Assembly: GCF_015910445.1 (NCBI RefSeq)
Contig: NZ_CP048882.1
Coordinates: 3,286,001-3,350,000, forward strand
Reading direction: 5' to 3'
Origin: Streptomyces bathyalis
GTDB lineage: Bacteria; Actinomycetota; Actinomycetes; Streptomycetales; Streptomycetaceae
Length of the DNA stretch: 64,000 nt
Of this stretch, positions 20-18,386 are shown piece after piece. The notes below the pieces were generated by a model. That model saw only the letters and a program-made list of their open reading frames with translations. It did not search any database and was not told where the DNA came from. Made by a program: the position numbers and the translations under genes. Position 1 is the first letter of the stretch. Each line of letters starts with the position of its first letter.

Positions 20-1351
20 TCACCCCACGTCGCTGCGCTCCTCCCCCGCGCCGTCGGGAGCCGCGGCATGCTCCGGGGACTTTTCGGCCGACGTCTCCCC
101 GGCGGGCGACGGCGACGGCACGTCGCGCACCTTCGGGGAGAGCACGAGGAACGCGGCGAGCAGGCCGAGCACCGCCGCACCGCAGACGAACGGCAGCGAG
201 ACGCCCGTCTGGTACAGCGCCGTCGCGGCGAGCGGGCCGAGGACGAGGGTGAAGCCGTTCGTCGCGGAGATCAGCCCGGCGACACCGCCCTGTTCGTCGG
301 CACCGACCCGCAGGCTCAGCACGGAGTTGTAGCCCGGGATGGCCAGACTGTGGCCCAGGCCGGAGAGCACGGTCGCCGCGAAGAAGACCGGCAGGCTGTC
401 GGCGAAGACCATGACCACGAAGGCGATCCCGGTCAGCGGCACCCCGACGCGCAGCAGCCGCAGTGGCCGCCACTTGAGGAACGGGATGACGACGCCCTGC
501 ACCAGCAGCATGGGGAGCCCGCCGGCCAGCAGCACGTACCCGGACCACTCGGCGGTCTCCCCGGTCGTCAGCCCGAGCCGGTCCTGGAGCAGGAAGCCCA
601 GGCTCATCTGCAGCATGCTGACGGAGAGGTAGACGCCGACGCCCGCCAGGAGGAAGGGCCACACCCGCTCGTCCCGCCAGCTCAGCCGCGGTGCCTTCTT
701 CTTCGGGCCCTCGGAGCGCGCGTCTTGCGGCAGGGCCGCCCATACAGCGAAGGCGGGCAGCAGGATCAGGCCCGGCGCCAGGTAGAGAGCGGCGACCAGC
801 CCGAACTCGGCCAGTACGCCGCCCAGTCCGGGCCCGAGGACCAGCGCGAGGCCGATGGCCGCACCCACGCGCGCCATGCCCTTCACGCGGTCCTGCTCGT
901 CCGGCGTGACGTCGGCGACGTAGGACTGCGCCGCCACCGGCAGGGCGGCCAGCGCTCCGCCGAAGACGATGCCGCGGGTCGCCAGCAGCAGGGCGAAGGT
1001 GAGGGCGGCGCCGATCGCGCCGAGCAGCCCGAAGTGCGCGGAGACGGCGAACGCGAAGAGGCCCGCGGCGGCGCCGAACAGCGAGACCACGAGCAGCGGT
1101 TTGCGCCCGTGTGCGTCGCTGCGCCGGCCCCACCAGGGGCTGACGAGCGCGACCATGGCTGCGGAGGCGCTCATCACGATGCCGAACTGGAACTCGCTGA
1201 GGGAGAGTTCACGTGCCAGCGGCGGAAGTGCGGGCGTGAGGATCTGCTGACCCGTGTAGCCCCCGAAGACCGCCAGGTAGAGCAGCAGGAGGCTGCGCCG
1301 GGGAGGGCTGCTCGAGCCGGCCGGCGTGGCGTGTGGCGCCGCAGTGGTCAT
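20..1351 (-). CDS. MFS transporter, probable exporter of the cluster product
   Basis: The 443-residue protein is almost entirely hydrophobic helices, about twelve. A major-facilitator motif A (GRRSDAHGRKP) lies at residues 75-85, between helices 2 and 3. I chose the ATG at 1351, which gives MTTAAPHATP just before the first membrane helix. The open frame extends upstream, but that part is Arg/Pro-rich and looks non-coding. It is the last gene of the minus-strand run, 358 nt after the amidase, so it may have its own promoter. Two CCGTGCACGG palindromes lie in that gap. By family and position I infer export of, or self-resistance to, the product. The substrate cannot be read from the sequence. 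Confidence 0.9.
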   Translation of the reverse strand: MTTAAPHATPAGSSSPPRRSLLLLYLAVFGGYTGQQILTPALPPLARELSLSEFQFGIVMSASAAMVALVSPWWGRRSDAHGRKPLLVVSLFGAAAGLFAFAVSAHFGLLGAIGAALTFALLLATRGIVFGGALAALPVAAQSYVADVTPDEQDRVKGMARVGAAIGLALVLGPGLGGVLAEFGLVAALYLAPGLILLPAFAVWAALPQDARSEGPKKKAPRLSWRDERVWPFLLAGVGVYLSVSMLQMSLGFLLQDRLGLTTGETAEWSGYVLLAGGLPMLLVQGVVIPFLKWRPLRLLRVGVPLTGIAFVVMVFADSLPVFFAATVLSGLGHSLAIPGYNSVLSLRVGADEQGGVAGLISATNGFTLVLGPLAATALYQTGVSLPFVCGAAVLGLLAAFLVLSPKVRDVPSPSPAGETSAEKSPEHAAAPDGAGEERSDVG

Positions 1352-1709
1352 GTTCGTCCCATCGATTCCGGTTCGGCCGACGTCTGGTGGTTCGGGGGTG
1401 CCCTTCCCCTCCGGTCCGACGTCGGACGGATTCTTCGCCGTTCTCCGGCGTCCTCGCCGGCTCCCGTGCACGGATTCGTGCCGTGCACGGCCGGTCCGTG
1501 TCAGGCCGCCGAGGGCCAGGGCTGTCCGGCCCGCGGACCCCAACCCGGGCCGCTGGTCAGTCTTATCCGGTGCCGGCCTGCTCGGCTGCCGATTTCCGGT
1601 CATCCTCCGCACGTCCCTCCTCACCGCCCGTCTGCCGGCCGTCGCCCTTCATCTGTTGCCTCCTCGGTCGCCCCTCGTCGCCCGACTGCCTTGCTCTGCC
1701 TGCCGGTTC
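1352..1709. promoter_or_regulatory. Intergenic region upstream of the MFS gene with two palindromes
   Basis: I see no gene in this 358-nt gap. The perfect 10-bp palindrome CCGTGCACGG occurs twice, at 1464-1473 and 1481-1490, so the repeats are 17 bp apart and lie about 115-140 nt upstream of the MFS start. Spaced identical palindromes suit a dimeric repressor. No TetR or MarR gene is adjacent, so the regulator would be elsewhere or be the LysR at 17430. The function is inferred. Confidence 0.4.
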
Positions 1710-3143
1710 TCAGGCGGGGCGCAGCTCCAGGGGCTCCAGTGCCGTGGTGAGCTGCTGCGCGAGGCGGATCAGCGAACCGTCGTCCCCCGGGCGGCCGACG
1801 AGCTGCACGGCCAGGGGCGCACCGTGCTCCGGGTCCCGGCCGACGGGCACGGTGACCGCCGGCAGACCGGCGAAGCTGGCGACGGGCGTGAAGCCCACCT
1901 CGCGCTCGAAGGCGGGGTCGTCTGCGTCGGGGATGGTGGAGGCCGCCACCACCATGCCGCGGGGCCGCGGCACGCCCGGGTCCAGCGGCATGAGCCACAC
2001 GTCGACGGACTCGGCGGCGAACAACTCCACCACGCCCGCCCGCAGTTGCGCCATGCTGCCGCGGATCTCCGCGAGCCGTTCGTCGGTCACCTTCGCGCCC
2101 GTCTCCAGCGCCCGCCAGGTCGACGGCATCAGCTCGTCCACGAGCCGGTCGCGCCACACCTGGTGGCCGTCCCAGGCCTCGCGGGCGCACAACTCCCATG
2201 CCGCCGCACGGCAGTTCCACAGTTCTCCCAGGGGGCGCGACGCGACGCGGTGTCCGCGCGAGGTGAGCGCCGCGCTCGCCGTGTCGAGTGCTCCGGCGAT
2301 CTCCGGGTCGATGACGCCCGGCCGGTACAGCTCCTGCGGCACGCCGACCCGCAGGCTCGGCGCCGAGAGCCGGGGGGCCTCGCCGAGGCCCAAGTGCCGC
2401 CAGGCGAAGGCGAGATCGTCGGCGGTGCGGGCGACCCAGCCGGGTGCGTCCATGCAGGGGCTGAGCGGGAAGATGCCCGCGAGCTTCGCCGGGTCGTGCG
2501 TCGTGCGCAGGCCGACGACGCCGCAGCGTCCCGCGGGCCAGCGCACGGAGCCCAGCACGTCGGTGCCCAGCGCGACGTCGCAGATGTTCGCCGCGACGGC
2601 CACCGCCGATCCGGTGCTGGATCCGGCCGGGTCGAACTGCGGGAAGTAGGGGTTGCCGCAGCCCGAGCCCACACCGATGTTCAACTCCGTGGTGATGACC
2701 TTCGCGTTGACCTCCGCGCGGCGGAGCCCCGCCACCACCGTCGCCGACTCCCGGGGGTGGTGCCGGTAGTGGCGCAGCCCGAGCCGCGTGGCGAAGCCCC
2801 GCACGTCGACGGTGTCCTTGACGCCGACCCGCAGGGCGCCGCCGCCCCTGCCGCTCCCGTCCGCCTCGTCCCCGTCATGTCCGCCGCCGGCTCCGTCGAC
2901 CGACTCCCCTGTGGTGACGCGCAGTTGGGCACAGGCCCGGTACCGCTGGTCAGCGACGGGCTCCCAGGAGGCAGCCGCTCCGTACAGCTCGGCCGCGGAC
3001 AACTCGCCCTTGCGCAGCAGCGCGTCCCGTTCCGCGAGGGGCAGGGCGAGCACGCGGGGCACGGCCGGCGCCGCCGCGTCGCCCGTCGCGCCGGGCCGTC
3101 TGCGGCCGACGAAGTCCGCCACTGCACTTTGAGGCGTTCGCAT
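1710..3143 (-). CDS. Amidase-signature family enzyme
   Basis: This 477-residue amidase-signature protein has the Ser-cisSer-Lys triad. The Lys is K109 in GVKDTVDV, the cis-Ser is S175 in DPAGSSTGSA and the nucleophile is S199 in LGTDVLGSV. The family hydrolyses amides, but some members act in amide transfer. I chose the ATG at 3143 (MRTPQSAVADF) because the upstream extension is low-complexity Pro/His. Residues 84-103 are a Gly/Asp-rich insertion before the catalytic Lys. It lies 220 nt downstream of an ATP-grasp ligase, separated by a strong hairpin. In this cluster it could trim or rearrange an amide made by the ATP-grasp enzymes. The actual substrate is unknown. Confidence 0.9.
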   Translation of the reverse strand: MRTPQSAVADFVGRRRPGATGDAAAPAVPRVLALPLAERDALLRKGELSAAELYGAAASWEPVADQRYRACAQLRVTTGESVDGAGGGHDGDEADGSGRGGGALRVGVKDTVDVRGFATRLGLRHYRHHPRESATVVAGLRRAEVNAKVITTELNIGVGSGCGNPYFPQFDPAGSSTGSAVAVAANICDVALGTDVLGSVRWPAGRCGVVGLRTTHDPAKLAGIFPLSPCMDAPGWVARTADDLAFAWRHLGLGEAPRLSAPSLRVGVPQELYRPGVIDPEIAGALDTASAALTSRGHRVASRPLGELWNCRAAAWELCAREAWDGHQVWRDRLVDELMPSTWRALETGAKVTDERLAEIRGSMAQLRAGVVELFAAESVDVWLMPLDPGVPRPRGMVVAASTIPDADDPAFEREVGFTPVASFAGLPAVTVPVGRDPEHGAPLAVQLVGRPGDDGSLIRLAQQLTTALEPLELRPA

Positions 3144-3310
3144 CGCTGCTCCTGCATGTCGGCGCCGATGATGTTCGGCTCTGTGGGGTTGGGTGTGTGG
3201 CTTGGGTGTGTGGCTCGGGTGTGTGGGCTGGGGTGTTTGGGCTGCGCTGTGTCGTGGCCGGTGCTCCCGCTCCGCCTGGCCCCGCATACGCCCGTACGGG
3301 GAGCCGGGCC

Positions 3311-3355
3311 GCTGTTCGGGCACGAAAAAACGGGGTGCGCACGTGCCCGAACAGC
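3311..3355 (-). terminator. Strong intercistronic hairpin between ATP-grasp and amidase genes
   Basis: The arms CTGTTCGGGCACG (3312-3324) and CGTGCCCGAACAG (3342-3354) are perfect complements, and a further G-C pair makes a 14-bp stem. The 17-nt loop contains AAAAAA, read as U6 on the minus-strand RNA. It lies 9 nt after the ATP-grasp stop and about 170 nt before the amidase start, so it could attenuate transcription or protect the upstream mRNA. The T-run is inside the loop, not after the stem, so it is not a standard terminator. Confidence 0.6.
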
Positions 3356-3363
3356 CGTCGTGC

Positions 3364-4611
3364 TCAGCCGAGTTCGTAGAAGCCCTCACCGTCGAGATAG
3401 CGCAGCGTGCCGAAGTCGCGCATGACGACCTCCTCGACCTCGTGCCGGAGGTTGACGATCATCGGGTAGGTGAGGTCGTCGACCGTCGGCTCGATGGCGG
3501 AGCCGGGGCTGACGAGGGTGCGGATCTCGTGGAGGCTCTCCAGCTTCTCCACCGTCTCCAGGTGCGGGTAGCGGCGCAGCGTGCCCCGCACTGAGGAGAT
3601 CATCGCGACGGACGCGAAGTGGTGCCGGATCCGGTACTCCTCGTGCTGCCGCGCGTCGAAGCGTTCCGGGTTGACGTAGGCGTCGACCGTCCAGTCGATC
3701 TGGGACTCGCCGATGCCCATGCGGGCGTAGTGCGGGATGTCGCCGCCGGCGATGCGCGCGCCCACCTCGACGAGCCGCGGCCCGTCCGGCGTCAGCTTCA
3801 CCTCCAGGTGGGCGGGACCGTTGCGGATGCCGAGGGCGTCCAGGACCCGCCGTGCGTACGCGGCGAGGGTGTGTCCGTCGTCGCTGCCGGAAGCGATGAG
3901 GCGGACGGCGTCGCACAGGTCGAGCACGCCGTTCGCCGTCAGCCGCGTCGTCTTCCACATGTCGCACACGTGGTGCCGGCCCTCGCGGCTGACGGTGTTG
4001 ACGATGAACTCGCCGCCGACGAGGTACTCCTGGGCGACGATGCCCTCGTTGCTCTGAGAGAAGACGTTGCTGGCCGACCTCAGGGCCCGGTAGGCGTCGA
4101 CGGACTCCTGCGGCGTGTCGCAGAAGTGGATGCCGTCGCCCGCGGTGCTTCGGACCGGCTTGACCACCACGCGGCCGCCCAGCTTCTCGTGCCAGCGCCG
4201 CAGTTCGTCCTCACCCGTGATGCGGAGCTGCTCGGCTCCGGGCACACCGGCTGCCTTGATCGTCTCGATCATCGTGTACTTGTCGCGGCGTGCGGCGCTG
4301 AGTGCGGTGCCGTTGGTGGCCAGACCCATCTCCTCGCTGAGCAGGTCGGTGAACTCCACGCCGAACTCACCTCCCGGCACGACGGCCACGGGACCGAAGT
4401 CGGCGAGCGCCTTCACCGTCTCGTCCAGGTCGCCCCGGTGGACGATGTTCCCGGCGTAGTCGTCGAGGCTGAAGGAGGAGCCGTAGACCTCCGGCACCTC
4501 GGGGGTGCTCTGCACGCGCACGCACCCGTATCCGGCCTTCACGAACTCCGGGGCGAGCCGCCTGGTGAAGCTGTAGGCGTCGACGATGGCCACATAGCCC
4601 TTTTCCGGCAT
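3364..4611 (-). CDS. ATP-grasp ligase 1 (L-amino acid ligase type)
   Basis: This 415-residue ATP-grasp protein has the nucleotide-binding Lys in RVVVKPVRSTAGDG (K151), a second ATP segment AQEYLVGGEFIVN (residues 193-205) and the metal-binding acidic pair around E270 and E282 in HLEVKLTP and LVEVGARIAGG. The last motif is typical of carboxylate-amine ligases that activate an acid as acyl phosphate and form amides or dipeptides. The ATG at 4611 begins MPEKGYVAIVDAYS. It lies 110 nt after the SDR gene. It is the second of two ATP-grasp enzymes in the operon, which suggests two amide bonds or two alternative amines. Substrates cannot be deduced. Confidence 0.9.
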   Translation of the reverse strand: MPEKGYVAIVDAYSFTRRLAPEFVKAGYGCVRVQSTPEVPEVYGSSFSLDDYAGNIVHRGDLDETVKALADFGPVAVVPGGEFGVEFTDLLSEEMGLATNGTALSAARRDKYTMIETIKAAGVPGAEQLRITGEDELRRWHEKLGGRVVVKPVRSTAGDGIHFCDTPQESVDAYRALRSASNVFSQSNEGIVAQEYLVGGEFIVNTVSREGRHHVCDMWKTTRLTANGVLDLCDAVRLIASGSDDGHTLAAYARRVLDALGIRNGPAHLEVKLTPDGPRLVEVGARIAGGDIPHYARMGIGESQIDWTVDAYVNPERFDARQHEEYRIRHHFASVAMISSVRGTLRRYPHLETVEKLESLHEIRTLVSPGSAIEPTVDDLTYPMIVNLRHEVEEVVMRDFGTLRYLDGEGFYELG

Positions 4612-4721
4612 GGCTTCTCTCTCCTGTCTGGGCGCGGCAGCCGCCGCTGTGCTGTGCCGGTGGGTCACCGGCCTCGGGTGCTCTGCGGGGGGGATGATTC
4701 GGGGGACGGGCCTGACGGGCG

Positions 4722-5489
4722 TCAAGCGCCGTGCTGCGCACCGCCGTTGACCTGGACGACCTGTCCCGTGACGTGGCCCGCGCCGGGCGAGGAGAGCCAG
4801 TGCACGGTGTCGGCGATGTCCGCGGGCGTGCCGGCGCGGCCGTTGTCGGTCTGTGCGACGAGCATCTTGCGCCGCTCGTCCGACATCAGGTCGCCGAAGA
4901 ACTCGGTGTCCTCGATGAAGCCGGGGGCCACCACGTTCACGGTGGCTCCGTGCCCGCCCAACTGCCCCGCAAGGTCGTAGGCGTAGGGATGCAGGGCCGC
5001 CTTCGACGCGGCGTACGAACCGGAACCCGAGCCCCGGTATGCGGCGATGGAGCTGATCAGCACCACCCGGCGGCCCGGCTGCTGCAGGAGGTCCCTGAGC
5101 GCCTCGGTGAGAAGCACGCAAGTGAGCACGTTGCAGTTGAAGTTGCCGGTCCAGTGCCGTGCGACGCCGGCGAGTCCGCCGGGAGCGTCGTCGGGCGCGC
5201 CGATCTCCACGTTGCCGCCGGCGTTGTTGACCAGCACGTCCACGCGGCCGTAGAGCCGGTCGACCTCGGCACGTACGCGTTCCGCCTCCGCCGGGTCGGA
5301 GAGGTCGGCCGCGAAGGTCCGGATCTCCCCGCTGATGCCGTCCTCGGCCGCGAGCGCCTCGGCCGCGTCGCTGAGCACCCCGGCCCGGCGTCCGACAAGC
5401 AGCACACTGTCGCCGTCCGCGGCGAACCCGCGGGCCACGGCACGTCCGATGCCCGTCCCTCCACCGCTGACGATCACCACTCGTGACAT
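4722..5489 (-). CDS. SDR-family NAD(P)-dependent oxidoreductase
   Basis: This 255-residue classical short-chain dehydrogenase has the cofactor motif SGGGTGIG near residue 8, the NNAG motif, and the catalytic Ser and YAASK in SSIAAYRGSGSGSYAASK. Length and architecture match the family (FabG-like). It sits between the two ATP-grasp genes with gaps of about 110 nt on both sides, on the same strand. A ketone/alcohol redox step during tailoring is the natural inference. It could also act on a carrier-bound acyl group. Confidence 0.92.
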   Translation of the reverse strand: MSRVVIVSGGGTGIGRAVARGFAADGDSVLLVGRRAGVLSDAAEALAAEDGISGEIRTFAADLSDPAEAERVRAEVDRLYGRVDVLVNNAGGNVEIGAPDDAPGGLAGVARHWTGNFNCNVLTCVLLTEALRDLLQQPGRRVVLISSIAAYRGSGSGSYAASKAALHPYAYDLAGQLGGHGATVNVVAPGFIEDTEFFGDLMSDERRKMLVAQTDNGRAGTPADIADTVHWLSSPGAGHVTGQVVQVNGGAQHGA

Positions 5490-5601
5490 CTCATCCCCTC
5501 TCCTGCTGCGTGCTGCCCGGTCCGGTCGGCCGGTCCGGTCGTGTTCCGCCGCGTCGTGTGTTCGTTCCGGTCCTGCCCGGAGCCGCCTGCCGTCGTGCCC
5601 T

Positions 5602-6897
5602 TCACCGGGATCCGGCTCCGACGATGTTCTCGTCCCGCACCGGCTCCGCGGTCACCCGGAACGCCTCGGCCGTGGCGACGAGGGCCTTCTCCACCTCACC
5701 GCTGTCGCGGCCCCGGAAGCGGAACCGGCCGCCGACGTGCTCGTAGTAGGCGTCGGCCGCGGGCAGCACCTCCCCGACGCTCAGCAGGGACTCGCTGTAC
5801 GGTCCGGGCTCCAGGCCGGTCATGGGCGTCACCTCGGTGATGCGGCACGGCTTCTCCGCCGGTGCGGGGATCAGCAGCCAGCCGCCGCGCTCGGGACCGT
5901 GGCCGACGCCGGTGCCGGATCCGTCGCTGCCGTGAGCCGCGGACGGCGCCGGCGGCGCGGGTTCGCCGAGCTGGATGCGGAAGGCTGCCTCCATCAGGTC
6001 GTAGCCGTGCAACTCCCGCCAGATGAACGGGATCTCCGCACCGCCGACGCGCGCGCCCACCTCCAGGAACTCGCACCGCAGCCCCACCCGGTCCACGAAC
6101 ATCTCCAGGTGGAACGGCGTGGGCCGGTCGGTGAGCGCCGCGAGGAACCGGCGCGTGTACGTGCCGATGACGGCCAGCAGTTCCTGGTCGTCCTCCTCCA
6201 CGGACCCGAGGAAGAGCCCTTCGCGGAAGCCGAGGCAGGAGTTCACGTAGCGGGAGGCACGCCAGGTGGCCAGTTCCTCGCCGGTGAAGACACCGTCCAC
6301 GTGGTAGATCGGATGCGGATTGCACACCTGCACCAGTGACGGCTCCGACCAGGATGTGGCCGCGAGCTGTTCCTGCCCGTCCAGCACGGTGACCCCCGCG
6401 CTGGAACTGCCCGTGCGCGGCTTGAGCACCACCGGCCAGCCGTGCCGTTCCGCGAAGCCAGTGACGGCCTCCGGTCCGGGTGCGGGCTCACACGCGGGCA
6501 CCGGCAGCCCTGCCTCGGCGATCGCCGAGGCCATCAGGTACTTGTCGCGGAACCGCAGCAGGTCCCCGGGGAGTTGGCCGGGGCATCCCAGGTCGGCGCG
6601 CAGCTGCGCCGCCACCAGCAGGTCGTCCTCCTTCAGGGCGACGATCCCGGCGGGCCGCCCGTGCCTGCCGGCCAGAGCGTGCACGGCCGCACGAACCTCC
6701 TCGAGGTCGTCGGTGCGCCGTACACGGGCCACCTCCGTGGCCGCCGGCGGTACGGAGCCGAGTGCGATGCCACTGGCAACGTAGGTGACGGTGTGGGTCT
6801 CGTGGTCGAGGTAGCGCTCGTACTGTGCGTAGTGCTCACGCCAGCGGGTGATCACCACGATGTGGGGCCTGTCGTCCGGTGCGCTCGCGGCTGTCAC
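5602..6897 (-). CDS. ATP-grasp ligase 2
   Basis: The 431-residue protein has ATP-grasp features: the PVVLKPRTGSSSAGV ATP-binding loop, a central YHVDGVFTGEEL segment and the metal-binding FLEVGARVGGAEIP. I chose the GTG at 6897 (VTAASAPDDRP), preceded by a good GGAGAG site. The longer frame to 6981 lacks one. A Gly/Ser-rich insertion near residues 320-340 interrupts the C-terminal lobe. It is distinct from the first ATP-grasp protein and is not a recent duplicate. It probably ligates a carboxylate to an amine in the cluster's amide-forming chemistry. Substrate unknown. Confidence 0.9.
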   Translation of the reverse strand: MTAASAPDDRPHIVVITRWREHYAQYERYLDHETHTVTYVASGIALGSVPPAATEVARVRRTDDLEEVRAAVHALAGRHGRPAGIVALKEDDLLVAAQLRADLGCPGQLPGDLLRFRDKYLMASAIAEAGLPVPACEPAPGPEAVTGFAERHGWPVVLKPRTGSSSAGVTVLDGQEQLAATSWSEPSLVQVCNPHPIYHVDGVFTGEELATWRASRYVNSCLGFREGLFLGSVEEDDQELLAVIGTYTRRFLAALTDRPTPFHLEMFVDRVGLRCEFLEVGARVGGAEIPFIWRELHGYDLMEAAFRIQLGEPAPPAPSAAHGSDGSGTGVGHGPERGGWLLIPAPAEKPCRITEVTPMTGLEPGPYSESLLSVGEVLPAADAYYEHVGGRFRFRGRDSGEVEKALVATAEAFRVTAEPVRDENIVGAGSR

Positions 6898-6988
6898 GTG
6901 CTTCTCTCTCCGTCGGCTGCCGGGCGGTGCCGGCAAGGCAGTCTGGGCTCTCTGGGCGGTCGGGTACGCGGGTCCGTGCATTCGGCGG

Positions 6989-8227
6989 TCACAGCAGCCG
7001 GGCGGCGAACGCCACCAGTTCCTCGGCCTGTTCGGCGTTGAGACGCGGATCGCAGGCGGAGGTGTAGCGGGTCAGGGCATCGGCACGTTCGAGGTCGCCG
7101 CGTTCGCCCACGCACTCGGTCACGGGCTCGGGGGTCGTCTCCAGGTGCAGGCCGCCCGGGTACGCGCCGTACTCGCGGAGTGCGGCGAGGAATCCGCGCA
7201 CCTCCTCCCGGACGTCGGCCAGTACGCGGCTCTTGCGCCCCGAGGCGTGCGGCAGCGTGTTCCCGTGCATCGGGTCGCACAGCCAGACCACGCGGCCCGC
7301 GAAGGGAGCCGCCGCCTCGATGAGCCGGGGAAGCCGCTCCGAGACCGCTCCGCGCCCCATGCGGCTGATCAGCGTCAGCCGGCCGGGCGGCCCGTACCGG
7401 TCGAACCGCTTGCACAGCGCGCGCACGTCCGCCGGGTCGGCCGACGGGCCGAGCTTGACGCCCACCGGGTTGTTCACCTGCTCCGCGAAGTGCACGTGAG
7501 CGCCGTCCAGTTGGCGGGTTCGCTCACCAATCCACAGCATGTGGGCGGACGAGGCGTACGAGCCGCCGACGATCGCGTCCGGACGCACCAGGGACTCCTC
7601 GAAGTCCAGCAGCAGCGCCTCGTGGCTGGTGAAGACCGCCTCGCGCTGCCGCGAGCTGCGGGCCTCCGGGCCGGGTGCGCCGGGCAGCTCCGGGCCGTGC
7701 GGTGCCGGGCCGTCAATTCCCGTCCGCCCTCCGGGTGTTCCGAGCGCCGCGAGCGCATCGGCGGCGTGGTCATAGGCGCGTACGAGCCGGGCGGGGTCGG
7801 CCCGCCGCGCCTCGGGCAGCGGCTCCGGGGAGTTGACCGCGTCACCGCGGTAGACGGGCAGTACCTGCCCGCCGACCGTCTCCGTCGGGTTCGACCTCGG
7901 CTTGGCGTACTGCCCGGCGAGCCTGCCGATCAGGACGCTCTCCAGCCCGGACAGCTCCCCCACGAGCGCGCCGAGCCGCCGGAGCTGCTGCTCCTTCGCC
8001 CGCACCTGGCCGGGCGCGGAGGCGGCGAACCGCTCGGCGCAGTCGCCGCCCTGTACGACGAACGCCTCGCCGCGGGCCGCCGCCGCCAGCCGGTGGCGCA
8101 GCTCGTGGCAGTCGCCCGCGCTCACCAGCGCGGGCCTGGTCGCCAACTCCTTCACGGCCAGGACGAGTTCCTCCTCGTCCTCCCATTGCGGCTGCTGCGC
8201 GGCGGCAAGCCGGGTTCCGAGTGTCAC
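6989..8227 (-). CDS. Class II DAHP synthase, compact secondary-metabolism form
   Basis: The 412-residue protein condenses phosphoenolpyruvate and erythrose-4-phosphate at the entry of the shikimate pathway. Class II motifs are visible: GGDCAERF (residues 60-67), GRLAGQYAKPRS, and CDPMHGNT near the C-terminal half. Primary-metabolism class II enzymes are around 450-475 residues, and this one is shorter, like the phenazine-type isozymes, which often escape feedback inhibition. The GTG start at 8227 overlaps the ammonia-lyase stop as GTGA, so the two are translationally coupled. Coupling to an aromatic lyase strongly suggests that the cluster boosts its own tyrosine or phenylalanine supply. Confidence 0.93.
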   Translation of the reverse strand: MTLGTRLAAAQQPQWEDEEELVLAVKELATRPALVSAGDCHELRHRLAAAARGEAFVVQGGDCAERFAASAPGQVRAKEQQLRRLGALVGELSGLESVLIGRLAGQYAKPRSNPTETVGGQVLPVYRGDAVNSPEPLPEARRADPARLVRAYDHAADALAALGTPGGRTGIDGPAPHGPELPGAPGPEARSSRQREAVFTSHEALLLDFEESLVRPDAIVGGSYASSAHMLWIGERTRQLDGAHVHFAEQVNNPVGVKLGPSADPADVRALCKRFDRYGPPGRLTLISRMGRGAVSERLPRLIEAAAPFAGRVVWLCDPMHGNTLPHASGRKSRVLADVREEVRGFLAALREYGAYPGGLHLETTPEPVTECVGERGDLERADALTRYTSACDPRLNAEQAEELVAFAARLL

Positions 8228-9837: not shown

Positions 9838-9840
9838 CCG

Positions 9841-11174: not shown

Positions 11175-11593
11175 CGCAGTGCCTTTCCCTGAGCGGCGGC
11201 AAGGGCCTCTCCGGCCTGTCGCAGCGTTCCTTGGTGGGCGAGATGGACGCGGCCGGGGTCGGTCTCCCGGAACTCGATGTAGAGGAAGGGGGTTTGCTCG
11301 TTCATCTCCAGCGCCGAGGCGATCTCGGCGGCCAGCTCCGTGCGGAAGTCCTCGTCGCGGTCCGACCCCACACACACGGTCACCGACGCGTGCTGCAGGC
11401 CTTCGTCGCCGTGCGGCAGGGCATCGACGGGCATGCCGCCGCTGAAGACGGTGGACGGCGGTGTGGCACAGAAGCGGACCACCACGTGGCCGCCCGGTAC
11501 GCCGCGTGCGGTGAACCAGCGCGTGAGCCGCAGCGCCACCCTGCGGCGGGCCGGGACCGCGAGGTCGGGGCCGCTGATCTCGATCGTGGGCAT
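11171..11593 (-). CDS. Tautomerase-superfamily protein with Pro after the start Met
   Basis: The 140-residue protein begins MPTIEISG. Tautomerase (MIF/4-OT/CHMI) family enzymes use an N-terminal Pro, exposed after Met removal, as general base or nucleophile. The beta-alpha-beta pattern seems to occur twice (residues 2-75 and 70-135), with a terminal strand FLYIEFRETD followed by a loop, as in that fold. It is 14 nt after the repeat protein and overlaps the ACP start. A keto-enol or Michael-type reaction on a cluster intermediate is plausible, but the assignment rests on the N-terminus and general pattern only. Confidence 0.65.
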   Translation of the reverse strand: MPTIEISGPDLAVPARRRVALRLTRWFTARGVPGGHVVVRFCATPPSTVFSGGMPVDALPHGDEGLQHASVTVCVGSDRDEDFRTELAAEIASALEMNEQTPFLYIEFRETDPGRVHLAHQGTLRQAGEALAAAQGKALR

Positions 11594-11607
11594 GGAGACC
11601 TTCCTGG

Positions 11608-13398
11608 TCAGGAGAGCGCGAGGTCGGGGAGGGCGCGCAGGGCGCCGTCGACGCGGCGGCGCAGCAGGGAGCCGAGCGCGTCGGCGAGCGGACCTCCGCT
11701 GCCGGGTGCCAGCGGGCTCCACGCGGTGCCGCCGTCGCTGTGCACGCGGTCGGTGAAGCGCCGCAGATGCTCGGCGTCGAGGGGCAGCCCGTACAGGTCC
11801 GCGGTGGCGACCGCCTCGTACGTGGAGAGCAGATCGGGCAGTCGCGCACCGGTGTTGGCCCAGCCGCCGCCACGCACCCGGTGCCGGTCGAGGAGCGACG
11901 TCACGGCGTGCGGGGAGCCCTCGCCGAGTGCGTGCCGGATGCGCTGCGCCTGCAGGCCCTGGCGGAGCGTCGGTTCGGTGCCGGGCAGTGCCGCGGTGCA
12001 CTCATCGGGGCCGAGGCAACGGGAGACGAAGGCGCGCAGCGCGGCGGCGTCGAGAAGCTCCGGCACGGCGGCGCCCAGGTGACGTACGACGCCGACCGCG
12101 GCCGCCGTGGAGAGCAGTTCGGAGCCCCGTCCCTCCCAGAAGCCGAAGCCTCCGTCGGGGTTCTGGATGCCGCGCACCCACTCGGCGATGCGCCTGCGCG
12201 CGGGCTGAGCCGCCTCACCGGCGAACGCTCCTGCGGTCAGGCCCCACAGGGTGCAGCGGATCTCGCTGCCGCGGGCCGGCATGTACATCAGGCCGCCCTC
12301 GTTGGGGAGTTGGCAGCTCTCCAGCCAGGTGATGCGGTCGGCACGTACGGACGGCTCCGGGGAACCGGACGATTCCCGGGCACCCGGGGGCTCCGTCCCG
12401 TCAGCCAGCACGGCGGCCGCGGTGCTCAGTGCGTCGGCCGCGTGCTCGGGCTCGCGGTAGGTGTATCCGCCGCCCGCGCAGCGCAGTGCGCTGATGCGGG
12501 CCACCACGGCGTCGGCGACGTCGGCGGTCGGCGCCCCGACCGCCTGCAGCGCGCCGACCGCGCAGAACGAGGCCCACACGTCCTCGACCTCGTAGCCCTG
12601 CCAGCGCACGAACGCGCCGGAGGCACCGCGCAGTTCACGTATCCACGGCTCGACGGGGCGGCTCGGGGAGGCGCCCAGGATGTTCAGTGCCGCCGTCGCG
12701 CGGTACGTGGCCCACATGCAGGGCACGTCCGCCTCCGGCGAGAAGCGGAAGCCGCCCTCGGGTGTCTGCTGTTCGCACAGCCAGCGGGTGAGCGCCGCGA
12801 CGTCCCACGGCGGGTCCACCGGGGCGACGCCGTTCAGCGCGAACCAGGCGGCGGCACCGTAGTGACAGGCACGCACGTCGCTGGTCCGCGAGTCCGGACT
12901 CCACGACAGCCCGCCGTCCGGGCGCTGGAGCGCGCCGAGCCAAGCCAGCAGCCGCGCCCTGTCCGGCACGCCGTCGCCGCAGATGCGCACGGTGCTGCGG
13001 GTGGAGAAGTGCGTGGCCCACACGTCCGGCGCCTGGCCGGGCGCCATCGCGTAGGCCGCGCCGGTACCGTCCGCCGTCCAGGTGCCGCGCAGCCACTGTG
13101 CGGTGCCGTCGGGCTCGGGCAGGGGGCGGCCGAGGTCGGCGAGGGCCTGCGTGCAGTAGAAGGTCGCCCACGCATCGGACGGCATTCCGGCGGACCAGGC
13201 GTAGCCGCCGTCGGAGTTGCGTCTGCTGCGCAGGTAGCGGGCCGTCGCCTCGGCGTCCTCGGCCTCGGCGGTGCGGCCGAGCCAGGCCAGGGTGCGCATC
13301 GCGGCGTAGGTGCACCACAGGTCCGGTTCGCCGGTGCCGGCGGCACGGCTCTGCGACAGGGCGGCGGGCACGGGCTGTGCCTGTGTGAGGGCGCTCAT
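11608..13398 (-). CDS. Prenyltransferase/squalene-oxidase-repeat protein
   Basis: The 596-residue protein is built from about ten repeats. Each has a Gly-Gly-rich turn (for example DGGYAW, DGGLSW, EGGFRF, DGGFGF) followed by a helix with Asp and often Trp-Ala-Thr/Ser (SDAWATF, PDVWATH, CMWATY, EDVWASF). This is the alpha/alpha toroid of squalene-hopene cyclases and protein prenyltransferase beta subunits. I see no DXDD acid motif of class II cyclases, so classic cyclase activity is doubtful. Its ATG shares one base with the stop of the PaaK-like gene (TGATG), implying coupled production and possibly a complex. Role unknown. Confidence 0.85.
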   Translation of the reverse strand: MSALTQAQPVPAALSQSRAAGTGEPDLWCTYAAMRTLAWLGRTAEAEDAEATARYLRSRRNSDGGYAWSAGMPSDAWATFYCTQALADLGRPLPEPDGTAQWLRGTWTADGTGAAYAMAPGQAPDVWATHFSTRSTVRICGDGVPDRARLLAWLGALQRPDGGLSWSPDSRTSDVRACHYGAAAWFALNGVAPVDPPWDVAALTRWLCEQQTPEGGFRFSPEADVPCMWATYRATAALNILGASPSRPVEPWIRELRGASGAFVRWQGYEVEDVWASFCAVGALQAVGAPTADVADAVVARISALRCAGGGYTYREPEHAADALSTAAAVLADGTEPPGARESSGSPEPSVRADRITWLESCQLPNEGGLMYMPARGSEIRCTLWGLTAGAFAGEAAQPARRRIAEWVRGIQNPDGGFGFWEGRGSELLSTAAAVGVVRHLGAAVPELLDAAALRAFVSRCLGPDECTAALPGTEPTLRQGLQAQRIRHALGEGSPHAVTSLLDRHRVRGGGWANTGARLPDLLSTYEAVATADLYGLPLDAEHLRRFTDRVHSDGGTAWSPLAPGSGGPLADALGSLLRRRVDGALRALPDLALS

Positions 13399-14711
13399 CA
13401 GGCCTGCTCCACCACGCGTATGTTGGAGCGCTTCCAGCTCTTCTGGGAACCACCGCTCTTGGTGGTGCTGGGCAGGGAGTTGACGAAGGCGACGGCGTCC
13501 CAGTGGAGGCCGAGTTCCTTCTCCGAGTAGCGCTGCACCGCCTCGATGGCGGCCGGCTCGGCCGAGCGGTCCGCCCCGATGCCCCGTTCGAGGAGCAGGC
13601 GTCCGAAGTCGCCGGTGGCCTCGAGCTCGACGAGGTAGCCGGTGGCCTCGGTCGCGCCGTACACGGCGTTCTCCACGCCGAGGATGTTCAGTTGCGCGCC
13701 GTGTATGCGGATCGTCTCGCTGCTGCGTCCGCACACCACGATCACCGGCGCCGGGTCCTGGCACTCGCAGCCGGCCGCGTCGATGTTGACGTCGTCGCCG
13801 GTGTCCAGCCGCAGCATCGGACGGGCGTACAGGTTGAGCGGCGTGACGACGAGGCGGCCGGAGCCCTTGGCGGGCAGCGGCACCAGGCCCTCGTCGGTGG
13901 CGAGTTCGAAGTAGTTGGTGCCGGTCAGCAGGTGCAGGCTGCCGCGCGGGCAGGCCGCCGCGAGGGTGCCGGTCTCGGTGCTGCCGTAGCTGGCGTCGTG
14001 GGCGTCGGCTCCCCACCACTGGCCGAGCCGCGCCCGCAGGGCGGGGGTGCTGACCTCGCCGAGAAGCATGATGTTGCGCACCGCGCCGCTGTGCCGCTCC
14101 ATCAGGTCGCGCTGCTTGAGCAGGCGCGTGAGCTGGAGCATCACGCCCGGCGAGACGAACAGGGTCGTGGGGCGCAGGTTCTCCCAGAAGGCGAGCAGCC
14201 TGTCCCAGTCGGAGATTCCGGTGGCGAACGGGTACAGCCGGCTGTGCGGCAGGCCCAGGTATTCGCATACGGAGACGATCAGGTCCGCGACGGGCACGAC
14301 GTCCGAGGGCAGCAGCACCGCCACACGGTCGTCGTCGTGCAGGATCGTGCGCCACGCCTCCGCCACGGAGACGGTGTTCCAGATGACGTCCTCGGCCAGG
14401 CGCGGCGTCGGCGTGACCCGTCCCGTGGTGCCCGTGGTCTCGTAGTACTTCGCCGCGCCCGACACCCCGGTGACGGCGAAGTTCCAAGGGTCGGCCTTCA
14501 GTTGGTCCTTCGTCATGACCGGCAGGCGTCCGAACTCCTCCCAGGAGAAATCCGGGAGCCCCTGGAAGGCGGGACTCTTCCTCGCCCGGTCCCAGACCGC
14601 GGCGAGCTTTCCGCCGTGGAAATCCTCGGGAACGGGATTCCCGCGCAGCGAACGTAATTCCTCCTGAGCGCAGCGCATCATTTCCAGTCCCGCACGGTCC
14701 CGGACGAGCAC
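13398..14711 (-). CDS. PaaK-like adenylating enzyme 1, first gene of the operon
   Basis: This 437-residue protein is of the phenylacetate-CoA ligase/CapK family. It has ETTGTTGRVT (residues 91-100, phosphate loop), ASYGSTETGTL and GCECQDP, with the acidic and Cys positions typical of the family. The GTG at 14711 is preceded by GAGGGG. Codon 19 is TTA (14655-14657), rare in Streptomyces, making expression of the whole operon potentially dependent on the bldA tRNA. It is only distantly related to the PaaK-like gene at 15048, which is transcribed divergently. It probably activates an aryl or acyl carboxylate, with substrate and acceptor unknown. Confidence 0.88.
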   Translation of the reverse strand: MLVRDRAGLEMMRCAQEELRSLRGNPVPEDFHGGKLAAVWDRARKSPAFQGLPDFSWEEFGRLPVMTKDQLKADPWNFAVTGVSGAAKYYETTGTTGRVTPTPRLAEDVIWNTVSVAEAWRTILHDDDRVAVLLPSDVVPVADLIVSVCEYLGLPHSRLYPFATGISDWDRLLAFWENLRPTTLFVSPGVMLQLTRLLKQRDLMERHSGAVRNIMLLGEVSTPALRARLGQWWGADAHDASYGSTETGTLAAACPRGSLHLLTGTNYFELATDEGLVPLPAKGSGRLVVTPLNLYARPMLRLDTGDDVNIDAAGCECQDPAPVIVVCGRSSETIRIHGAQLNILGVENAVYGATEATGYLVELEATGDFGRLLLERGIGADRSAEPAAIEAVQRYSEKELGLHWDAVAFVNSLPSTTKSGGSQKSWKRSNIRVVEQA

Positions 14712-15047: not shown

Positions 15048-16310
15048 ATGGCCATCACCTCCTCGGAAGAGTCCGCCACGGCACACCGCGACCCGGCGCA
15101 GCACGACCGCGTGCTGTCGCCGGAGGTCGTGCGCCGGCTGCTGGACCGGATGAGCGACCTGCCCTCGCTCAGCCACCTCTACGACAAGGCGCGCTCGCTG
15201 CCGGACCCGGCTCTCGGCGACCTTCCCGTTTTGACGAAGGACGACTTCCGCACCGCGCTGCCGGACACCGTGCTCAGGGCGCGGCGGCGCGCGCACGGTT
15301 CCCTGGTGCTCGGCAGCGGCGGCACAACGTCCGCCCCCAAGCTCAGCCTCGTGCCCAGCGGCCAGATGATCGAGGAGATCCGCACGGTCTGGGACCCGCT
15401 GTCCGCCGACGATGTGCTGGTCAACTACGACACCCCGGGCCGGCTCTGCTCCTCGCACGCCTTCTTCAACGCGCTGGCCCACTCGTCGGGCGCCGTCTCC
15501 GTTCCGCTGGGCGCCATCGAGGACCGCCAACTCCCCGAGTGGATGGGCATGGTGCACCGTCTGGGCGCCACGGCGCTCAACGCCACCCAGAGCCAGATCG
15601 CACATCTGCTGCAGACCTGCGTCGACGCCGGGATCACCCCCGGTTTCCGCAAACTCCTGTGGACCGGCGAGCCGTTCGGCGCCGCGGCCCTCGACGTGGT
15701 GCGGCGCATCCTGCCCGACGCGGAGCTGTACGGCTGCTACGGCTCGACCGAGACGTGGGTGATCGGGCACAACGGCCCGGGCTGCGCCATGGACACCTTC
15801 CACCTCGTGCCCTACCAGCACGTCGAGCTCGACGACGGGCTGATATTCGTGACGAACCTGCACCCCGAGTGCGTCAACCCGGTGGTGCGCTACCGCATCG
15901 GCGACAGGGGCGAGTTCACCTCCTGCACCTGCGGCCGTACGGAGCCCGCGCTGCGCGTGCTGGGCCGCGACGACCCTCAGATGAAGTTCCTCAGCATCCT
16001 CGTCACGCCGCAGGAGATCGAGGAGGCGGCCCTGAAGGACCCGGACGTCACGGGCGTGCAGGTGGCGCTCTTCGACCACGGCGCTCCCGCGGAACGCATG
16101 GAGCTGCGCGTGAAGGTGCGGGAGGGCGCGCAGGCGGACGAGGTCGAGGCGCGGGTCAAGGAGACGGTGCTGACGCAGGTGTACCGGATGGGCTACGAGG
16201 TCGAGACGGAGGCACCCGAGGCGTTCTGGGTCCGCGTCACGCCGCGCTTCAGCATCAACGAGCGCTCACAGAAGACGCCGCTGCTGGTCAAGGACTCGCC
16301 CCTGGACTGA
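15048..16310 (+). CDS. PaaK-like adenylating enzyme 2
   Basis: This 420-residue protein is of the same superfamily as the gene at 13398 but is clearly divergent. It has LGSGGTTSAPKLS (residues 89-100, phosphate loop), YGCYGSTETW, and a Cys pair in TSCTCGRTEP that is likely metal-binding or structural. The ATG at 15048 follows GGGAG. It is transcribed away from the main operon across the 336-nt shared promoter region, so it is probably co-regulated. Two PaaK-like enzymes plus a separate short AMP ligase imply up to three different carboxylates activated in this locus. Coenzyme A may not be the acceptor. Confidence 0.88.
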   Translation: MAITSSEESATAHRDPAQHDRVLSPEVVRRLLDRMSDLPSLSHLYDKARSLPDPALGDLPVLTKDDFRTALPDTVLRARRRAHGSLVLGSGGTTSAPKLSLVPSGQMIEEIRTVWDPLSADDVLVNYDTPGRLCSSHAFFNALAHSSGAVSVPLGAIEDRQLPEWMGMVHRLGATALNATQSQIAHLLQTCVDAGITPGFRKLLWTGEPFGAAALDVVRRILPDAELYGCYGSTETWVIGHNGPGCAMDTFHLVPYQHVELDDGLIFVTNLHPECVNPVVRYRIGDRGEFTSCTCGRTEPALRVLGRDDPQMKFLSILVTPQEIEEAALKDPDVTGVQVALFDHGAPAERMELRVKVREGAQADEVEARVKETVLTQVYRMGYEVETEAPEAFWVRVTPRFSINERSQKTPLLVKDSPLD

Positions 16311-16427: not shown

Positions 16428-16435
16428 GAGTCGCC

Positions 16436-17335
16436 ATGCCCGAGTCCTCCGCCGTCCGCACCGCACGGCCCCGCCGCTATCTGATGTGCAGACCCACGTA
16501 CTTCGACGTCCAGTACTCCATCAACCCGTGGATGAGCCCCGAGAAGCCGGTGGACCGGGACCGGGCCGTCGCGCAGTGGGAGAAGCTGAAAGAGCTCTAC
16601 ACCGGCCTCGGGCACACCGTGGAGCTCATCGACCCGCTGCCCGGCCTTCCCGACATGGTCTTCGCCGCCAACGGCGCCACCGTCGTGGACGGAAAGGTAC
16701 TGGCCGCGCGCTTCCGCAACGAGGAGCGGGCGGCCGAAGGCCCCGCCTACGCGCAGTGGTTCCGCGACCGGCGCTTCGGCCGGGTCCACGAACCGCAGTG
16801 GGTCAACGAGGGCGAGGGCGACTATCTGACGACCGACCGCTGGATCCTCGCCGGCACGGGCTTCCGTACCGATCCTCGCTCCCACCAGGAGGCCCAGGAG
16901 CTCTTCGGCCGGCCCGTGGTCGGCCTCACCCTCACCGACCCCCGCTTCTACCACTTGGACACCGCACTCGCCGTACTCGGCGAGGAGGTCATGTACTACC
17001 CGGAAGCCTTCTCGGAAGGCAGCCGGGCCGTGCTGCGCGAACTCTTCCCCGGCGCGATCACCGCCTCGGCCCACGACGCCGAGGCGTTCGGCCTGAACGC
17101 CGTATCGGACGGACGCAACGTCGTGCTCCCCGAGACGGCCACGGGACTCATCGCCGAGCTGCGACGACGCGGCTACGAGCCGCACGGCGTCGACCTCTCG
17201 GAGCTGCTCAAGGCCGGGGGCAGCGTGAAGTGCTGCACTCTGGAGATCCGGGAGCCGTCCGGCGGACGTGAGCAGCGATCGGGCAGGGCCGGCACCACCG
17301 CGTCGGCGCCGGCGCAGACCGCCTGCGTCGTCTGA
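16436..17335 (+). CDS. Dimethylargininase/amidinotransferase-family hydrolase
   Basis: The 299-residue protein of the guanidino-group-modifying superfamily has the catalytic His in FYHLDTALAVL (H173) and the nucleophilic Cys in GGSVKCCTLE (C266 by position). The early segment MVFAANGATV binds the substrate amino acid in this family. Family members hydrolyse methylarginines to citrulline or transfer amidino groups. The ATG at 16436 follows GGAG. Similar genes are widespread in Streptomyces outside biosynthetic clusters, so membership in this cluster is uncertain. If it belongs, it would bring arginine-derived citrulline or a related amine to the ATP-grasp ligases. A strong terminator follows. 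Confidence 0.85.
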   Translation: MPESSAVRTARPRRYLMCRPTYFDVQYSINPWMSPEKPVDRDRAVAQWEKLKELYTGLGHTVELIDPLPGLPDMVFAANGATVVDGKVLAARFRNEERAAEGPAYAQWFRDRRFGRVHEPQWVNEGEGDYLTTDRWILAGTGFRTDPRSHQEAQELFGRPVVGLTLTDPRFYHLDTALAVLGEEVMYYPEAFSEGSRAVLRELFPGAITASAHDAEAFGLNAVSDGRNVVLPETATGLIAELRRRGYEPHGVDLSELLKAGGSVKCCTLEIREPSGGREQRSGRAGTTASAPAQTACVV

Positions 17336-17342
17336 CGTGCAC

Positions 17343-17394: not shown

Positions 17395-17429
17395 CGCACG
17401 CCCGCCGTCCGACTCGGGGGCGGCCGGGC

Positions 17430-18386
17430 TCAGTTCACGTCGTAGCGCCGCAACCCGGGGCCGGGCTCCGGCAGCGCGGCGCGCGGCGAGAGGCCCGGAG
17501 CGGAACCGGCGACTTCGGCACGTACGAACTCAACGAACGTACGCAGCGCCGCGTTGGTGTTGTCCCCCCGCCACGCCAGATCCAGCCCGACGCTGGGCGA
17601 GCCCGACAGCCTGCGCAGTTCGACCCCGGGAACGTCGAGCATCGCCACCGAACCCTCCGTCACCAGGGTGATGCCCGCACCCTCGGCGACCGCGGCGAGC
17701 ATGTGCGGGACGTCGGGCTCCTCCCGGCAGATCTCGGGGAAGTAGTGGCCGCCGTAGACGGCGGAGAGCATGGAATGCCACAGGCCGCCCGCGGACTCGG
17801 AGAAGTACACCAGCGGCAGGCCCACGAGGTCCTGCCTGCGCACCTCGGCCGAGCGTGCCAGCCGGTGCCCCGCGGGCAGCCCCACGAGCACCGCTTCCCG
17901 GCCGACGCTGACGGATTCCACTTCCGCGTCGTCGGGAAGAGGGGGGCGAACGAACCCCACGTCGAGGCGGCGTTCGCGTATGGCTTCGAGGTTGCTGCTG
18001 CTGGAGGCGCTGGATGTCTGTATCCGTAATCGCGGGCAGGCGCCCCGGAAACGGCTGATCAAGTCGAAGGCCCGGCCCAGACCGGCGGATCTCGTGTATC
18101 CGACGGTGAGACTTCCGTGGAACTGTTCTGCGAGGATTTTCACGAAGGCGTCGACGGCGTCGGCACGGGCCAATAACTCGCGGAACTCCGGGAGCAGAGC
18201 CTCCCCTTCGGCCGTGAGCGCCACGCCCTGCCGGCCCCGTTCGAAGAGCTGCATGCCGATGGCCTTCTCAAGTGCCTTCACACCTTGGGAAAGACCCGGC
18301 TGGGTTATGTGCAATCGTTTCGCCGCGCGACCGAAATGCAGATCCTCGGCGACAGCTACAAAGTAACGCGCACTACGAATATCCAT
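17430..18386 (-). CDS. LysR-family regulator with a TTA codon
   Basis: The 318-residue LysR-type regulator has an N-terminal winged helix-turn-helix (MDIRSARYFVAVAEDL, then AAKRLHITQPGLSQGVKALE) and a C-terminal periplasmic-binding-like sensor domain. The ATG at 18386 gives the canonical LysR N-terminus. Codon 71 is TTA (18174-18176), which in Streptomyces commonly places pathway regulators under developmental control by bldA. It closes the biosynthetic locus and is the best candidate pathway-specific regulator. The ligand is unknown. Confidence 0.92.
   Translation of the reverse strand: MDIRSARYFVAVAEDLHFGRAAKRLHITQPGLSQGVKALEKAIGMQLFERGRQGVALTAEGEALLPEFRELLARADAVDAFVKILAEQFHGSLTVGYTRSAGLGRAFDLISRFRGACPRLRIQTSSASSSSNLEAIRERRLDVGFVRPPLPDDAEVESVSVGREAVLVGLPAGHRLARSAEVRRQDLVGLPLVYFSESAGGLWHSMLSAVYGGHYFPEICREEPDVPHMLAAVAEGAGITLVTEGSVAMLDVPGVELRRLSGSPSVGLDLAWRGDNTNAALRTFVEFVRAEVAGSAPGLSPRAALPEPGPGLRRYDVN

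Follow-up and report, generated by a model that had tools for sequence, protein, structure and literature searches.

Gene content and organization of the locus

We analyzed a biosynthetic locus of Streptomyces bathyalis contained in a stretch of 64,000 nucleotides (hereafter the window; C1:3286001-3350000, G+C 67-75%) of a 7.38-Mb genome assembled as one contig. The locus comprises a minus-strand run of twelve genes (14711..20) headed by a five-gene core, which encodes a PaaK-like adenylate-forming ligase (PaaK1), an α/α-toroid repeat protein (the toroid), a small tautomerase, a free-standing acyl carrier protein (ACP) and a short AMP-forming ligase (PaaK2). Gene calls were made from codon-position GC together with Pfam and NCBIfam matches, and all start codons are predictions. 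These calls confirmed the coupled minus-strand run, the divergent genes and the LysR gene described in an initial annotation of the same DNA.

The core genes, all on the minus strand, are PaaK1 (13398..14711; PF00501, 30.7 bits), the 596-aa toroid (11608..13398; squalene-hopene-cyclase/prenyltransferase-β fold by Pfam Prenyltrans/SQHop_cyclase_N, AlphaFold and Foldseek), the tautomerase (11171..11593; cis-CaaD fold by Tautomerase_3, AlphaFold and Foldseek), the ACP (10872..11174; PP-binding domain PF00550, 25.3 bits, matched in a longer frame) and the 4-coumarate-ligase-like PaaK2 (9841..10875). On the same strand follow an aromatic amino acid lyase of the 4-methylideneimidazol-5-one (MIO) type, predicted to be a tyrosine ammonia-lyase (8224..9837; PF00221, 370 bits), a divergent class II 3-deoxy-D-arabino-heptulosonate 7-phosphate (DAHP) synthase (6989..8236; PF01474, 435.6 bits; TIGR01358, 410.2 of 614.7 bits), ATP-grasp1 (5602..6981; weak ATP-grasp Pfam matches), a short-chain dehydrogenase/reductase (SDR; 4722..5489; adh_short_C2, 127.8 bits), ATP-grasp2 (3364..4611), an amidase-signature enzyme (1710..3143; PF01425, 136.9 bits; taken from the ATG at 3143, the frame being open further upstream) and a major facilitator superfamily (MFS) transporter (20..1624; PF07690, 149.3 bits). 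The eight genes from PaaK1 to ATP-grasp1 are coupled, with spacings of -1, 14, -4, -4, 3, -13, and 7 bp; the gaps after ATP-grasp1 measure 112, 110, 241, and 85 bp, the third of which shrinks to 220 bp if the amidase begins at ATG 3143.

The plus strand opposite the run carries a third adenylate-forming ligase, PaaK3 (15048..16310; AMP-binding, 49.8 bits), followed by a dimethylargininase gene of doubtful membership (16436..17335; NF045659, 441 bits, cut-off 300), and a LysR gene, possibly the cluster regulator, comes next on the minus strand (17430..18437; LysR Pfam domains). In the divergent 336-bp intergenic region we found only short GC palindromes, which do not make a convincing operator. 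Pfam detected no ketosynthase or condensation domain among the genes of 20-18437, in agreement with the absence of ketosynthases and nonribosomal peptide synthetases (NRPS) noted initially. The set of a lyase, two ATP-grasps, two PaaKs and the repeat protein named in the initial annotation is also present, although that list was incomplete: the AMP-forming ligases are three, a third ATP-grasp gene lies left of the window, and the tautomerase had gone unnamed.

Sequence and structural features of the core proteins

The two NCBIfam models matched by PaaK1, DVU1553_fam (71.9 bits) and BagE_FevW (71.6 bits), both score far under their cut-offs, and its best relatives in the PDB are the phenylacetate-CoA ligase 9s3l, AjiA1 (6wuq) and the PaaK-like ligase 6siw, which we take to be NatL2. 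The window copy of PaaK1 exhibits the P-loop, the YGSTE and TGD motifs and the C-terminal Lys. PaaK2, whose gene overlaps that of the ACP, matches the 4-coumarate ligase model TIGR02372 with 70.5 bits, well under the cut-off of 334.7, and bears the motifs TSGHTG, FGSTE, MGDLVR, IKVNG, and SATGK. Adenylation motifs are thus kept in PaaK1, PaaK2, and PaaK3 of the window; in relatives, simple patterns missed, among others, the PaaK1 P-loop and the PaaK3 motifs at two loci (G268 and L014) and PaaK2 motifs at several loci. The Asp-Ser-Leu motif of the ACP is invariant in 13 of 13 aligned sequences.

The toroid matches Pfam Prenyltrans with 104.9 bits. Its AlphaFold model, built on a three-row alignment, is of middling quality (predicted local distance difference test [pLDDT] 75, predicted template-modeling score 0.61), and the best Foldseek match of the model is 1sqc (E 6.8e-8, template-modeling [TM] score 0.46), which assigns the protein to the α/α-toroid fold of squalene-hopene cyclase and other class II terpene cyclases. 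Unlike these enzymes, the toroid has no DxDD cyclase motif in any of 11 homologs, and on this ground the reading as a class II terpene cyclase was rejected. Its operon includes an ACP gene, and the genes scanned comprise none for terpene synthesis. When compared with the zinc ligands of farnesyltransferase, the homolog alignment has no invariant His, hence no conserved site of this kind. However, 32 positions occupied by Asp, Glu, Arg, Cys, or Tyr are invariant among the homologs, and this conservation speaks for a functional pocket having been retained.

The tautomerase falls just short of the gathering score of Tautomerase_3 (25.0 against 25.7 bits) and has no NCBIfam match. Its AlphaFold model (pLDDT 84) is most similar in Foldseek to cis-CaaD and Cg10062 (2flz, E 1.3e-8, TM score 0.66). 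In each of the 13 homologs, a possible start codon is followed directly by codons for Pro-Thr, providing a candidate Pro-1; the automatic start call lies further up in three of them (G017, G314, and G378) and further down in one (G247). His36, Arg79, and Arg84 are invariant. Since cis-CaaD-type enzymes hydrate conjugated acids, this analogy suggests that the tautomerase may hydrate or isomerize a cinnamoyl double bond.

Conservation of the core in Streptomyces

A protein search found the toroid in 9 of 392 genomes of the genus (all genome counts here and below include the genome under study), and a profile of the tautomerase retrieved the same nine; the chance that two random nine-genome sets coincide is ~2e-18, ignoring shared descent. 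The five-gene core occurs in constant order in eight of these nine genomes. The ninth (G297, locus L031, G297:C3:3414000-3433999) looks like a decaying copy: it lacks PaaK1, retains only a piece of the toroid, and has its lyase and DAHP synthase matches broken up between reading frames. A lyase search of genome contigs returned four loci, of which three bear the core (L013 of S. tuirus, L014 of Streptomyces sp. DH12, and L016 of S. caatingaensis) and one, L015 of Amycolatopsis rifamycinica, does not. Because L013 shares ~91-92% DNA identity with G009 and G260, these three loci are not independent; in L013 the PaaK1, toroid, and PaaK2 genes are split over frames, perhaps owing to sequencing errors. 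PaaK1 identities range from 50 to 93% among ten loci compared. In a phylum-wide sample, the toroid was detected at E 1e-40 in 1 of 396 genomes, namely the one under study.

The surroundings of the core define five locus types, with functions assigned by Pfam in one representative each. Type A comprises the window and the decayed G297. Type B (G260, G009, L013, and L016) has an amidase, a DAHP synthase and an asparagine-synthase-like gene in four of four loci, an aldo/keto reductase called in three and a lyase in three; compared with L013, G260 shows a clean gap in place of the lyase, and the amidase adjoins PaaK2 in this type. Type C (G268 and L014) has a lyase, an SDR, an amidase, a PaaK3-like gene and a RimK-like ATP-grasp, with an ATP-grasp2 relative (37%) in G268, while the L014 contig ends. 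Type D (G314, G378, and G247) has an SDR and an additional AMP-binding gene, accompanied in G314 and G247 by a lyase of a second subfamily, an aldehyde-dehydrogenase-family gene and a class I DAHP synthase. Type E (G017) has a class II DAHP synthase, a second-subfamily lyase, an SDR, 5-enolpyruvylshikimate-3-phosphate (EPSP) synthase, chorismate synthase, and shikimate kinase. The core is the constant element, and the lyase, the DAHP synthase and the ATP-grasps are variable parts.

Homologous clusters on Rhizobium rhizogenes plasmids

Three of 72,556 plasmid records contain the toroid, and all are from Rhizobium rhizogenes: pAtK84c (CP000631.1), pC5.7c, and pColt5.8a. The gene order in pC5.7c and pColt5.8a is PaaK1, toroid, tautomerase-like, ACP-like, PaaK2, GNAT N-acetyltransferase, amidase, MFS, LysR (on the opposite strand), PaaK3, SDR, and ATP-grasp. 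Strain K84 has a similar cluster on pAtK84c, where the annotation merges PaaK3 and SDR into one coding sequence, labels the MFS gene a chloramphenicol resistance protein and gives the regulator no family name. Between pC5.7c and the window, identities amount to 39% for PaaK1, 40% for the toroid, 26% for the tautomerase, 36% for the ACP, and 29% for PaaK2, and to 30% for the amidase, 45% for PaaK3, 48% for the SDR, and 54% for the ATP-grasp (against ATP-grasp2); the window LysR is ~26% identical to the LysR proteins annotated in the pC5.7c and pColt5.8a clusters. The plasmid clusters thus resemble the window in the core, amidase, MFS, regulator, PaaK3, SDR, and ATP-grasp, and differ from it in the extra N-acetyltransferase and in the genes they lack, which are considered below. 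Co-inheritance had been named initially as a point on which the reading of the locus could fall; the five-gene core is co-inherited, being kept together in Streptomyces and having homologous counterparts on these plasmids. An IS256 transposase gene lies between the ACP gene and a shortened PaaK2 in pColt5.8a. K84 is described as a well-known biocontrol strain (PMC10410297), and in the literature seen we found no link between the cluster and biocontrol by K84.

The core-associated lyases and their predicted substrate

The window lyase bears the MIO Ala-Ser-Gly triad and the catalytic Tyr, Asn, and Arg residues (GSLSASGDLVPLAH, YGLTRGFG, FANGSG, and YSLRC). Its best solved relative, with 219.6 bits, is 2o6y, ahead of tyrosine aminomutases (160.6 bits); the PDB entry itself reads putative histidine ammonia-lyase, and we take it to be the R. 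sphaeroides tyrosine lyase. A His-Leu pair of the window lyase is aligned opposite the His-Leu of 2o6y, presumably the selectivity pair of bacterial tyrosine lyases, and in the 2o78 variant this His is replaced by F. In the NCBIfam ranking, histidine-lyase models come first (319 bits, cut-off 524), followed by the FlxA tyrosine lyase (218.7 bits, cut-off 700) and the tyrosine aminomutase TIGR03832 (204.4 bits); the score for BagA_FevW is 151.8 bits against a cut-off of 1000, and both tyrosine-lyase models represent other subfamilies.

Among those compared, the core-linked lyases form two subfamilies, with 57-63% and 56-87% identity within and 31-36% between them, the second consisting of the G017, G314, and G247 lyases. 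An alignment of nine lyases showed His-Leu in six, which make up the group of types A, B, and C plus Amycolatopsis. The two subfamilies stand closest to 2o6y and to the BagA/FevW model, respectively. For the second, the member scanned was the G017 lyase, whose highest score, 809 bits (cut-off 1000), fell on the BagA/FevW tyrosine-lyase model, compared with 373 bits for the mutase model. Of the 12 Streptomyces core loci, 10 have a lyase homolog next to the core (the exceptions being G260 and G378); leaving out the three loci that the lyase search itself had turned up removes that bias and gives 7 of 9. The occurrence of lyases close to tyrosine lyases beside most Streptomyces cores points to p-coumarate as the probable core substrate in this genus. 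Shikimate-pathway genes also stand beside the core in G017 (EPSP synthase, chorismate synthase, and shikimate kinase), in G314 (chorismate synthase and a shikimate dehydrogenase-kinase), and in G247 (DAHP synthase I).

PaaK2 paired with a lyase of the first group recurs in three further loci in which the core was not seen (L015, L079, and L080), and this recurrence supports PaaK2 as the predicted ligase for the lyase product. The His-Leu lyase pairs of these loci lie close to genes that look like sugar-nucleotide or glycosyltransferase genes (one in L015 is EryCIII-like, and L080 has NRPS domains), and their products are possibly glycosylated hydroxycinnamoyl compounds.

Proposed pathway and alternative explanations

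From the observed gene content and coupling, the core, the motifs, the predicted folds and the co-occurrence pattern, we infer every reaction and the product given here: the cluster probably directs an ACP-dependent route, free of polyketide synthase (PKS) and NRPS enzymes, to a p-coumarate-derived amide or short acyl-peptide. The DAHP synthase would raise shikimate flux, the lyase would convert tyrosine into p-coumarate, and PaaK2 would adenylate p-coumarate and load it onto the free-standing ACP. With the acyl group bound there, the cis-CaaD-like Pro-1 enzyme may hydrate or isomerize the conjugated double bond and the SDR may perform redox chemistry at the β position, with the squalene-cyclase-fold protein supplying a pocket or a catalyst for a further step. 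PaaK1 would then activate a second acid, or the processed one, for ester or amide formation in the style of NatL2/FevW, and a second module of PaaK3, two or three ATP-grasp ligases and the amidase would attach and trim amino acids before export by the MFS transporter, perhaps under LysR control. The strongest link is the one from tyrosine through p-coumarate and PaaK2 to the ACP; the weakest are the role of the toroid, the substrate of PaaK1 and the amino acids used by the ATP-grasps. The initial annotation had proposed a p-coumaroyl-type acid that is made, activated and amidated by ATP-grasp chemistry. The lyase motifs, the TIGR02372 match of PaaK2 and its overlap with the ACP gene favor the first two parts. 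Amidation of the coumaroyl unit itself is less likely: since ATP-grasp ligases act on free carboxylates and not on ACP thioesters, we place these enzymes downstream of the ACP chemistry or alongside it, where they would more probably attach amino acids once the acid has been released, or assemble the amine portion.

Several observations weigh against this proposal. Homologs of the window lyase, the G017 lyase, the DAHP synthase and ATP-grasp1 were absent from all three Rhizobium stretches (tblastn, E 1e-3), and the stretches read of G260 and G378 contain no lyase, from which it follows that the core may use an acid that needs no linked lyase. The Rhizobium tautomerase and ACP homologs are weak (26% and 36%) and match no Pfam family on their own. 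Lyase relatives occur at E 1e-70 in 24 of 392 genomes, of which 5 are toroid-positive and 19 lack the toroid, and relatives of ATP-grasp2 are found in other clusters. Finally, the G017, G314, and G247 lyases have no His-Leu in the same register of the nine-lyase alignment, and the selectivity pair cannot prove a lyase over an aminomutase.

This last point bears on an alternative that we regard as unlikely, in which the MIO enzyme is a tyrosine aminomutase, β-tyrosine is carried on the ACP with its amine protected by an aminoacyl group added by the ATP-grasps, and the amidase deprotects at the end. MIO lyases and aminomutases have the same catalytic residues, the tyrosine aminomutase model TIGR03832 does match the window lyase, the locus encodes both amino acid ligases of the ATP-grasp type and an amidase, and in the Rhizobium cluster the N-acetyltransferase adjoins the amidase. 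The greater similarity of the window lyase to 2o6y than to the solved aminomutases argues for the opposite conclusion, as does the more than twofold higher score of the G017 lyase on the BagA/FevW model than on the mutase model.

We give little credence to a bagremycin-like scheme, in which PaaK1 would join a (hydroxy)cinnamic or second aryl acid to a phenol or amine, yielding an aryl ester or amide, with the ACP and toroid preparing the partner and the ATP-grasps serving in tailoring or self-protection. PaaK1 matches the bagremycin/ferroverdin synthetase model, and its closest PDB relatives include PaaK-like ligases that we take to be NatL2; its score is, however, far under the model cut-off of 800, and no domain for 3,4-AHBA (3-amino-4-hydroxybenzoate) synthesis and no UbiX/UbiD domain was found among the scanned genes of 20-18437. 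The bag/fev clusters of Streptomyces likewise combine a tyrosine ammonia-lyase (FevV/BagA), a DAHP synthase and a PaaK-like condensing synthetase (FevW) in one aromatic pathway, but the excerpted account of them names no ACP, squalene-cyclase-fold protein, tautomerase, or ATP-grasp (PMC6692506). The bag/fev pathway also differs in that it builds the second half of its product from 3,4-AHBA and in that it decarboxylates coumarate; genes for these steps were not found here. That the run joins two unrelated units, a core and lyase pathway and a separate ATP-grasp/amidase/MFS peptide pathway, is very improbable: the gap does grow from 7 to 112 bp past ATP-grasp1, loci of types B, D, and E have no ATP-grasp2 homolog in the stretches read, and ATP-grasp2-type ligases with MFS neighbors exist without the core, but amidase, PaaK3, SDR, ATP-grasp, and MFS genes travel with the core in Rhizobium, diverged amidase, PaaK3-like, SDR, and ATP-grasp2-like genes accompany it in G268, and the type B amidase adjoins PaaK2.

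Comparison with known systems

The ACP-dependent, ligase-based route proposed above has partial counterparts only. In nataxazole biosynthesis, NatL2 is a PaaK-like adenylating enzyme that is reported to form an ester en route to the benzoxazole (PMC7204872), and PaaK1 is a distant relative; the zinc-dependent cyclase of that pathway was not seen here, and the amidase of the locus belongs to the Ser-Ser-Lys amidase-signature family. ATP-grasp2 belongs to the same wider L-amino acid ligase family as the dapdiamide synthase DdaF (PRK07206, NF005543, 347 bits, over the cut-off of 302), but reaches only 227.6 bits on the DdaF model, whose equivalog cut-off is 840. No description of a squalene-cyclase-fold protein combined with a Pro-1 tautomerase and an ACP was found in the open-access literature searched, and the earlier statement that the gene combination is not recognized from any described pathway holds within the scope of these searches. 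We rate the gene set as an NRPS/PKS-independent, ligase-based biosynthesis whose single ingredients have known relatives and whose combination is undescribed there.

A bolder view, which we hold tentatively and consider somewhat doubtful, is that the squalene-cyclase-fold protein no longer serves terpenoid chemistry and, together with the Pro-1 tautomerase, works on an ACP-bound hydroxycinnamoyl group, the core being a new carrier-protein assembly line without ketosynthase or condensation domains that is common to Streptomyces and rhizobial plasmids. If right, our reading of the locus would define a rare co-inherited core that is missed by tools seeking PKS and NRPS genes, with the toroid and tautomerase as a compact anchor for mining such clusters. 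It would also raise the question of what role a squalene-cyclase fold without the acid motif plays beside a carrier protein, and would point to an undescribed product on Rhizobium rhizogenes plasmids, including that of the biocontrol strain K84.

Accessory and neighboring genes

To the left, an amino-acid permease gene (C1:3284123-3285841; Pfam, 147.9 bits) lies 0.2 kb from the window edge and the third ATP-grasp gene (C1:3282573-3283946; 67% identity to ATP-grasp2) 2.1 kb from it. Given these genes, the window probably cuts the locus, which seems to run past the left edge into both; against counting them as part of the cluster, the decayed relative G297 has different genes beyond its MFS gene. 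To the right, 21111-26548 contains alcohol dehydrogenase-like, PALP-family pyridoxal phosphate-dependent and FAD-binding monooxygenase-like genes, with no cluster link seen.

The dimethylargininase was set aside as a pathway enzyme, as it passes an ordinary equivalog cut-off and has homologs in 28 of 31 genomes; given a second copy elsewhere in this genome, it could be a bystander or recruited. In the amidase, the signature Lys and two Ser are present (VKD, GSSTGSAVAV, and GTDVLGSVRWP). Genes with 33% identity to PaaK3 occur in G268 and L014. A plasmid of Streptomyces sp. NBC_01276 also carries a PaaK3-like gene, which belongs to a different cluster containing ketosynthase genes; for the PaaK1-like genes on Pseudomonas syringae plasmids, the one record read showed a cluster of different composition that includes anthranilate synthase.

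The best PDB match of ATP-grasp2 is the L-amino acid ligase 30vh, and no match to it was found in the viral contigs searched. Relatives of ATP-grasp1 occur in 13 of 61 genomes. As relatives of the ATP-grasp genes are widespread without the core, these genes were rejected as a cluster signature, and one G268 gene considered as a permuted ATP-grasp was dropped for want of Pfam support. Elsewhere, ATP-grasp1 relatives (L048, L050, L051, and L053) are in some cases accompanied by more ATP-grasp genes and by what appear to be carbamoyltransferase-like genes. Two Streptomyces plasmids (L083 and L087) have in common a cluster with an ATP-grasp2 relative (~57%), in which glutamine-synthetase, EgtB-family, asparagine synthetase B, and phytanoyl-CoA dioxygenase genes are annotated.

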